Origin: an uncultured Nitrospirota bacterium
GTDB lineage: Bacteria; Nitrospinota; Nitrospinia; CAJXCL01
Length of the DNA stretch: 46,161 nucleotides
Assembly: GCA_913051775.1 (NCBI GenBank)
Contig: CAJXCL010000011.1
Span: 1 to 46,161 of the forward strand
Reading direction: 5' to 3'
Numbering within the stretch: position 1 is the first letter of the stretch; every line of letters starts with the position of its first letter. The translations under genes and the position numbers were made by a program. Under the pieces are notes generated by a model. It worked only from the letters and a program-made list of their open reading frames with translations. It was not told where the DNA came from and searched no databases. Positions 26,820 through 28,653 of this stretch are shown piece after piece.

Positions 26820-27027
26820 ATCAGGCAATTCTTTTCTTCATAAAGCGGTAAGTTGCCGCAATCAAAAGGAGCTACCACTCCGGTGAGCAAACAGAAAATT
26901 CTTCCGAGCTTTGCATGAGGCGCTGCATAAAACAAAAACTAACAGCGCCTAAAAAAGAATCTTTTACGGTGTAATAGTATAAATGATCGGCATTCCCGTT
27001 TATAAGTATAGGGTGTATATCCTTATA

Positions 27028-27373: not shown

Positions 27374-27851
27374 ATTAAACACGAAATTAGAATATCGAGA
27401 TACGAAACAATATCTAAATCCAAATATTCAAAATTCAAAACTTTATTCACTTTCACGTAAAATGGAACCAAATATACTCATTAGCTCTGTGGGTCCCTTT
27501 ATTAAACTGTTTCCTCCATTTTCCAGTTTCTGAATATCATGCATATCTACCAGCTTTATCCAGTAACGGCTTTCCTTCGCTTCTTTTCGACATATCTTAA
27601 TTCTCATGATGAAATCTTTTTTGCTCAGTGCCTCATTCGCTTCAATATAGTTCGCACCAACTGAACCTGAGGGTCTGACCAGTTGTTTTCCGTCTTCAAA
27701 GTTACCAGTAGTTTTATGCAATTTTTTTACAAAAGTTCTCACGTTTTTAGCAAAAGTAAGTGTCGGTCTTCCAAGTCATATTGTTTTGTATTATTGTTCA
27801 TTTAGTCATTCGAATTTGTTTCTATTTCGATATTCTAATTTCGAATTTAAT
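27374..27851. mobile_element. 478-bp inverted-repeat cassette around an IVP-like gene
   Basis: The left end 27374-27410 (37 nt) and the right end 27816-27851 (36 nt) are inverted copies with three mismatches and one single-base gap; the core CGAAATTAGAATATCGA is identical in both. They closely bracket one gene: 32 bp separates the left repeat from the stop, 14 bp the right repeat from the ATG. This is the architecture of 23S rRNA intervening sequences, in which terminal inverted repeats form an RNase III stem and the insert encodes an S23/IVP protein. Here it lies in an intergenic position with no rRNA nearby. No target duplication is obvious. Confidence 0.7.
27443..27801 (-). pseudogene. Frameshifted four-helix-bundle (23S rRNA IVP/S23) protein
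   Basis: From ATG at 27801 the frame reads MNNNTKQYDLEDR, then near 27763 a one-base deletion shifts it. The shifted frame gives TLTFAKNVRTFVKKLHKTTG, GKQLVRPSGSVGANYIEANE, ALSKKDFIMRIKICRKEAKE and SRYWIKL to the end at 27443. Together these are a complete ~118-residue IVP/S23 four-helix bundle protein with the characteristic SGSVGANYIEANEA motif. Without the deletion it would be full length; alternatively GTG at 27742 could start a 99-residue version. Homologues occur in rRNA intervening sequences and in intergenic copies, plus as Avd in diversity-generating retroelements. No reverse transcriptase is nearby. Confidence 0.85.
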
Positions 27852-27982: not shown

Positions 27983-28653
27983 CTTACTACCAGACCTTTT
28001 CGCGCCCTCCATCATATTGTATCGGATGCCGGGAAAAGTTTCATTAACTCACAATGGTGTATTGTTTTTTAGACGAACTACCTGAACTCAAAAGAAATGT
28101 ATTGGAAGTTATGCAGCAACCCCTTGAAGATTTAGATGTTACTATCTCCAGCGCAATCTCATCCCTGACCTACCCCGCAAATTTCATGTTAGTGGCAGCT
28201 ATGAATCCCTGTCCATTCGGATGTACGCTGGAACAAATAAAAAAGTATGTTTCCCGCATATCAGGTCCGCTTTTAGACCGTATGGATATCCATGTTGAAG
28301 TTCCAGCCTTGAATTGTCAGGAAATGACTTCTAACTTAAGCGTGGAAAAATCAGAACAAATTAGAGAACGCGTAAAAAACGCAAGAGAGGCTCAATTAAT
28401 CCGATTTACCGGAGATAAAATCTACTGCAGCGCCAATATCACAATAGTATTATTAAAGAGGCATTGTAAAATCGACAGTGGTTCGGAAAAAATCATGGAG
28501 ACGGCAATCAGTAAATTAAGCTTAAGCGCCTTCGCTTACGACCGAATTTTGAAGGTTTCTCATACAATAACTGACCTTGCATATAAAGAAGACATCCAGC
28601 AGGAGCATATCTCTGAAGCTATACAATATCGCACTCTTGATAGGGAGAACTGA
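27983..28653 (+). pseudogene. comM: Broken ComM/YifB-type Mg-chelatase-like ATPase, C-terminal half
   Basis: TTRPFRALHHIVSDAG at 27983-28032 is the ComM block before Walker B, but the sequence then jumps to GKVSLTHNGVLF, omitting the usual LIGGG segment. An extra T in the T-run near 28064 shifts the frame before LDELPELKRNVLEVMQQPLE. The rest is open to the natural end (ILKVSHTITDLAYKEDIQQEHISEAIQYRTLDR). The cysteine-rich insert is also lost: NPCPFGCTLEQI instead of NPCPCGY...CTCTPLQI. The N-terminal half with Walker A is absent. ComM is a branch-migration helicase for natural transformation. Confidence 0.88.

Follow-up and report, generated by a model that had tools for sequence, protein, structure and literature searches.

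Inverted heptamer arrays enclose an IVP/S23 gene in a probable family of small mobile elements

Introduction

A great many bacteria have annotated IVP/S23 proteins, for which we know of no function. To our knowledge, the origin of the intervening sequences of rRNA genes has likewise been open since 1990. These intervening sequences are among the closest described systems to the cassette reported here. In the 23S rRNA genes of Coxiella and Leptospira, inverted ends surround one small and often decaying gene (S23p, or IVP), and the same protein family, PF05635, is found in both systems. In the Coxiella intervening sequence, heptamers (GACAGAT) precede the S23p gene (PMC4990558); the heptamer trait described below is thus also present in the rRNA form. 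The IVP element differs from the rRNA form in that it is not located in rRNA, is dispersed, and has gene-less derivatives. Its ends are conserved left and right heptamer arrays, and no stem is maintained between them.

Three further systems resemble it in part. In bacterial MITEs and their parent IS, too, the gene-bearing parent is outnumbered by short copies that have inverted ends and no gene, but the parent here has no known transposase, the ends are tandem heptamers, and there is no clear target-site duplication. REPIN/RAYT systems have one gene between inverted short repeats and many gene-less pairs elsewhere in the genome. In the IVP element, however, the gene between the repeats is a PF05635 four-helix bundle and not a Y1 (HUH) transposase, Y1 genes lie elsewhere in the genomes, and tandem heptamers take the place of REP palindromes. 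The Avd protein of diversity-generating retroelements (DGRs) belongs to the same structural superfamily as IVP (PMC10053308), whereas the IVP element has no reverse transcriptase (RT), template, or variable repeat, and the proteins of the window clade gave no bAvd match.

Intergenic arrays of 7-nt tandem units, like the arms of the IVP element, are known as GGGAATC arrays in Xanthomonas and Nostoc (70–75 inward pairs in Xanthomonas; PMC4692102), as TAACTGA arrays in Beggiatoaceae (PMC4679880), and as cyanobacterial STRR. The GGGAATC and TAACTGA papers do not mention IVP genes; a link of all three kinds of array to IVP elements is proposed here. In the open-licence papers that were searched, we found neither heptamer ends nor gene-less derivatives described for IVP elements.

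Results

The cassette lies in the window, by which we mean the whole stretch of DNA that was analyzed (46,161 nucleotides). Its inverted arms at 27374–27411 and 27814–27851 are 82% complementary over 38 nt without gaps, and 89% complementary over 36–37 nt if one gap is allowed. The arms of the original prediction are thus present, though short of the nearly perfect repeats of 36–37 nt that it described. The pair scores 37, compared with a 99th percentile of 16 for random placements in the same locus. The bounds were set with the arm model R1, a sequence-only profile of 49 arms of other organisms with none from the window's genome. R1 has exactly two matches in the 46-kb window, one at each end of the cassette (Table 1), and these define a bounded unit somewhat shorter than the predicted 478 bp.

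Table 1. Features of the IVP element in the window.
Feature	Position	Strand	Basis
Whole element, 472 bp	27377..27848	- (gene sense)	Both ends by R1; agrees with the ends of other copies
Left end, 5' of gene, AAATTCGAAATTAGAATATCGAAATAGAAACAAATTCGAATGACTAAA	27801..27848	-	R1 35 bits, E 5e-10
Right end, 3' of gene, inverted orientation	27377..27425	+	R1 31 bits, E 9.3e-9
IVP / four-helix bundle gene, frameshifted	27443..27801	-	TIGR02436 E 2.5e-16; PF05635 E 4.4e-11; both above cut-off

A single S23/IVP-type gene lies between the arms, as had been predicted, and the window gives no rRNA match, in keeping with the predicted location outside rRNA. The start codon sits at the inner edge of the left end, as it does in relatives. 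The four-helix bundle protein, for which the nearest solved structure is 2rld, is the only product of the element; no recognizable transposase is encoded. Membership of a defence system was considered and rejected, as PADLOC gave no match. Three-frame translation against the relatives L135, L137, and L140 located a 1-nt deletion after YDLEDR, near 27765–27772. The gene is therefore read in two frames, MNNNTKQYDLEDR (start 27801) and TLTFAKNVRTF..., where intact relatives read MTKIQNSKQYDLENRTLEFAKNVRAF... It is likely a pseudogene and, because of this frameshift, the window copy, which is decayed, is probably dead. The second TIGR02436 gene of the window's genome has a stop within the match, and in the third the frame appears, from reading the sequence, to be broken near the N-terminus. 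Intact IVP genes are present in relatives (L135, L137, and L140); none was found among the three TIGR02436 genes of the window's own genome.

A protein scan of 84,980 species genomes returned at least 563 relatives of the window IVP protein. The best 80 of these come from Nitrospirota, Planctomycetota, Thermodesulfobacteriota, Myxococcota, Omnitrophota, Elusimicrobiota, many Patescibacteria, and others, and for the majority of the 80 the IVP gene lies between inverted arms of the same kind. The arm scores were compared with a null of random placements of a 318-bp "gene" within the same loci. The 99th percentile of this null is exceeded by 83% of 76 IVP loci, and by 71% of 24 loci that were taken from the window's genome and relatives and belong mostly to other IVP clades; for around one fifth of IVP genes, no convincing arms are seen. 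Of the 15 loci of the window clade that were scanned, none lies in rRNA, and 20 IVP loci and 14 further loci gave no rRNA match. The element has spread horizontally across phyla. Carriage by phages was considered and rejected, as viral_contigs held no relative and only two distant matches were seen in phage records.

The ends themselves are conserved. An alignment of 34 right and 35 left ends (69 arms from many phyla) is base-exact in nearly all cases, with a common outer edge at one fixed base, where around 10 unrelated bases are followed by AAATNCGAANNNCGAANNNCGAANNNCGAAACAA. This outer edge consists of four heptamers. Left and right ends are distinct from each other, each is conserved across phyla, and the left end includes the IVP start codon (AATGACC).

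The repeat unit of the arms is 7 nt. At a lag of 7, autocorrelation reaches z = 18.6 in the window clade, 11.3 in other IVP clades (with a period of 8, that is, octamers, at some loci), and 8.6 in cyanobacterial plasmids. Window-type ends have four CGAANNN units closed by CGAAACAA. The unit varies between elements (CGAANNN, CTAANNN, TAGGGTC, GATTAGC, CGTAAAT, and others), and other IVP clades have different heptamers, again inverted on either side of the gene. Within an element, the unit type of the two arms agrees: we counted 48 CGAA/CGAA pairs, 9 CTAA/CTAA pairs, and no mixed pairs. Because the unit type matches between the arms, gene and ends belong together; the agreement of the arms and the excess of arm scores over the null thus bear out the view that the gene and its repeats form a single unit. 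The CTAA types are scattered over the protein tree and require at least four changes by parsimony, although the tree is weakly resolved and compatible with a single origin. Common descent thus accounts for part of the in-step change of the units. The presence of tandem heptamers in both arms, changing in step, suggests, at the level of sequence, an oligomer that reads repeated sites.

In two Planktothrix plasmids (L222 and L223), the element is located between the DISARM gene drmD and a methyltransferase gene. Heptamer copy number and the mix of units (AATCGTA and AATCCCC) differ between the two plasmids in both arms. The IVP gene is nearly unchanged, which points to fast turnover of the arrays within one species.

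Arms without an IVP gene are common. A search of the window's genome with the arm model gave 36 matches (E up to 0.05), which form 15 inward pairs, no outward pairs, and 6 singles. No IVP gene is present in 14 of the 15 inward pairs, 13 of which span 109–192 bp and one 250 bp, so that gene-less copies outnumber the gene copy 14:1. The same search in 12 other genomes found from 7 to at least 150 arms, compared with 2–17 IVP genes of all clades. The extreme is G053, with at least 150 arms and one clade gene flanked by arms. The gene-less copies of about 137 bp in G043 and in the window's genome each have one right and one left end, and the left end retains the start-codon remnant AATGACC. Since one end of each kind and this remnant are kept, the gene-less pairs are internal-deletion derivatives of the gene-bearing form. 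The retention of both ends is as expected if movement in trans needs both. The original prediction held that repeats found in many places without an IVP gene would count against a defined element; they are indeed found in many places, but as inward pairs that keep both ends they do not have this meaning.

Some features of individual gene-less copies were also recorded. In G043 (L249–L268), the outermost spacer differs between left and right in 15 of 15 well-aligned copies, mostly as T versus C at position 5 or the reverse. Three copies of the window's genome (L245, L246, and L243; G000 contigs C2, C7, and C55) share extra internal and flanking sequence and look nested in another dispersed repeat of that genome. 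A 135-bp repeat pair in L195 was tried as a further case of gene-less copies and rejected, as it proved unrelated.

These copies could also be read the other way round, with the arrays as host repeats (tandem heptamers multiplied by slippage, or REP-like repeats that a resident Y1 transposase moves) between which IVP genes were captured. Array copy number does vary within a species (Planktothrix No.66 vs NIES-204), Y1-type transposases were found in 12 of the 13 carriers, and the heptamer arrays of Xanthomonas, Nostoc, and Beggiatoaceae have no reported IVP link (PMC4692102, PMC4679880). We nevertheless regard this origin as improbable. Host repeats would not be expected to have left and right ends that differ from each other, are conserved among phyla, and hold the IVP start codon in the left one, to retain one of each end and the start-codon remnant in gene-less pairs, or to face inward in all 15 pairs of the window's genome. 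Moreover, Y1 copies do not track arms: G053 has three weak Y1 matches and at least 150 arms, G051 has 17 Y1 matches and 64 arms, and G047 has arms and no Y1 match. For the same reason, Y1 transposases were rejected as the driver of movement, a part that they may still play.

Movement is seen directly in the comparison of occupied and empty sites. In G021, of a genus in the window's class, an IVP element begins directly 3' of a stop codon; G040 has a damaged copy orthologous to it, and G034 and G041 are empty at that site. In Scalindua, the L143 element lies between two genes, and G054, G055, G058, and G064 have no element there. An 11-bp near-repeat is present around this insert, some 20 bp outside the arms, and the listed junctions have no consistent target-site duplication. 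On cyanobacterial plasmids, cas1 directly adjoins cas2 in Nostoc UHCC 0870 and N. edaphicum, and an IVP element lies between them in Anabaena cylindrica 7122 and Nostoc TCL26-01. This insert reaches the cas2 start codon and replaces the last codons of cas1. In all three cases (G034/G041 vs G021, Scalindua, and cas1–cas2), the empty sites end at or near the arms. The position of the element is in general in or beside gene junctions. As a detail of the cyanobacterial plasmids L224 and L227, the C-terminus of Cas1 is now encoded by the repeat arm of the element.

Copies at unrelated places point in the same direction. Elements of two Scalindua genomes (L169 vs L201) are 94% identical over 470 bp with unrelated flanks, and L137/L154 and L143/L169 show the same pattern within one genome each, at 76% identity. 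Taken with the empty and occupied sites and the gene-less copies, this makes the unit very probably a defined mobile element family, and the predicted free-standing mobile form is supported. An immobile, domesticated host gene with attenuator or terminator repeats on its flanks would fit the long hairpin fold and the frequent intergenic position. It is contradicted by presence and absence at orthologous sites, by near-identical copies at unrelated sites together with wide horizontal spread, and by the frameshifts and stops in the copies of the window's genome, and we consider it highly implausible.

The original prediction compared the arms with the stem of rRNA intervening sequences, which is processed by RNase III, and proposed folding of the unit. 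The sense RNA of the element indeed folds far better than shuffled sequences (z -5.6) with its outer arms paired, and gene-less copies fold well on both strands (9 of 10 strands, z -3 to -8.5). This would suit an element at the RNA level, with ends that form an RNase III-processed stem in the transcript and with movement via RNA, by reverse splicing or by retrocopying with a host RT. Such an element would also agree with the resemblance of some PF05635 proteins to the Avd of DGRs, which works with the RT of the retroelement (PMC10053308), with a sub-threshold bAvd match of the L113 protein, and with the Coxiella intervening sequence, which has heptamer repeats on its 5' side and is cut by RNase III (PMC4990558). 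The arms, however, are not matched to their own partners. An arm scores 24.3 with its own partner and 24.9 with a stranger (p = 0.69), whereas left ends score 34.6 with one another and right ends 31.2. RNA duplex energies, calculated for both strands, are no better for own pairs than for cross pairs. There is no asymmetry of G-U wobbles, with 172 sense-compatible and 200 antisense-compatible mismatches (p 0.16). In the gene-less copies of G043, own arms match even less well than mixed pairs, an excess mismatch that may be due to subfamily descent and is not taken as a sign that pairing is avoided.

Covariation of an RNA stem was rejected on these tests of own-partner matching, duplex energy, and wobble, and the analogy to an RNase III-type stem is not upheld. 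As the own partner is matched no better than a stranger, pairing is not the selected trait; what is conserved is the sequence of the ends. The hairpin folding is real, and single-stranded structure may therefore play a part in movement. In 7 of 13 carrier genomes, G000 and G043 among them, the reverse transcriptase profile RVT_1 has no match; G043 has at least 150 arms. Movement based on RT was rejected for this reason, and an RNA-level element as a whole appears unlikely.

Discussion

We propose that the IVP element is a small DNA mobile element with a four-helix bundle protein as its only gene. An oligomer of IVP would bind the heptamer arrays, and thereby provide both the sequence-specific recognition of the ends and their pairing. 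It would act in cis on its own element and in trans where a copy has no gene, and cutting and joining would be performed by a borrowed enzyme that is not encoded in the element. A DNA route is preferred over retrotransposition because no consistent target duplication is seen and RT is missing in 7 of 13 carriers. On this view, those IVP elements that landed in rRNA would be the 23S rRNA intervening sequences, with RNase III trimming the transcript.

The assignment of IVP as the reader of the arrays is made because its gene encodes the sole product of the element and because the units change in step in both arms. Solved relatives of IVP are oligomers, and a Xanthomonas relative is a homopentameric ring (PMC4990558). 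Judged from sequence patterns, it is rather probable that IVP recognizes the heptamer-array ends of a transposon that borrows its strand-exchange enzyme. A bolder form of this proposal, in which the IVP protein is itself the mobility determinant of a new class of transposase-less elements and acts in trans to mobilize the gene-less copies, dozens in each genome, is put forward only tentatively.

The element of the IVP/S23 proteins is now defined by exact ends, left/right asymmetry, units that change in step, non-autonomous offspring, and occupied and empty sites. The function of IVP thus becomes directly testable, as array binding and as mobilization in trans. IVP genes have been reported in association with CRISPR adaptation modules (PMC10910872), for which insertion of the element between cas1 and cas2 offers a plain explanation. 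If the proposal is correct, a new element class would unify the 23S rRNA intervening sequences, the orphan genes annotated as "four helix bundle protein", and some heptamer arrays. Some of the arrays that have been without an origin for decades (STRR, GGGAATC, and TAACTGA) would then gain one.

Two features beside the window copy may be added. A dispersed repeat at 26837–26983 adjoins the element and has 77–90% matches at C3, C39, C52, C2, C18, and C81 of the window's genome; it bears no relation to the IVP arms. On the other side, at 28054–28653, a YifB/ComM-type Mg-chelatase-like ATPase is represented by its C-terminal half (profile positions 300–499 of 499), and its truncation just beside the element is possibly the scar of a deletion or rearrangement.
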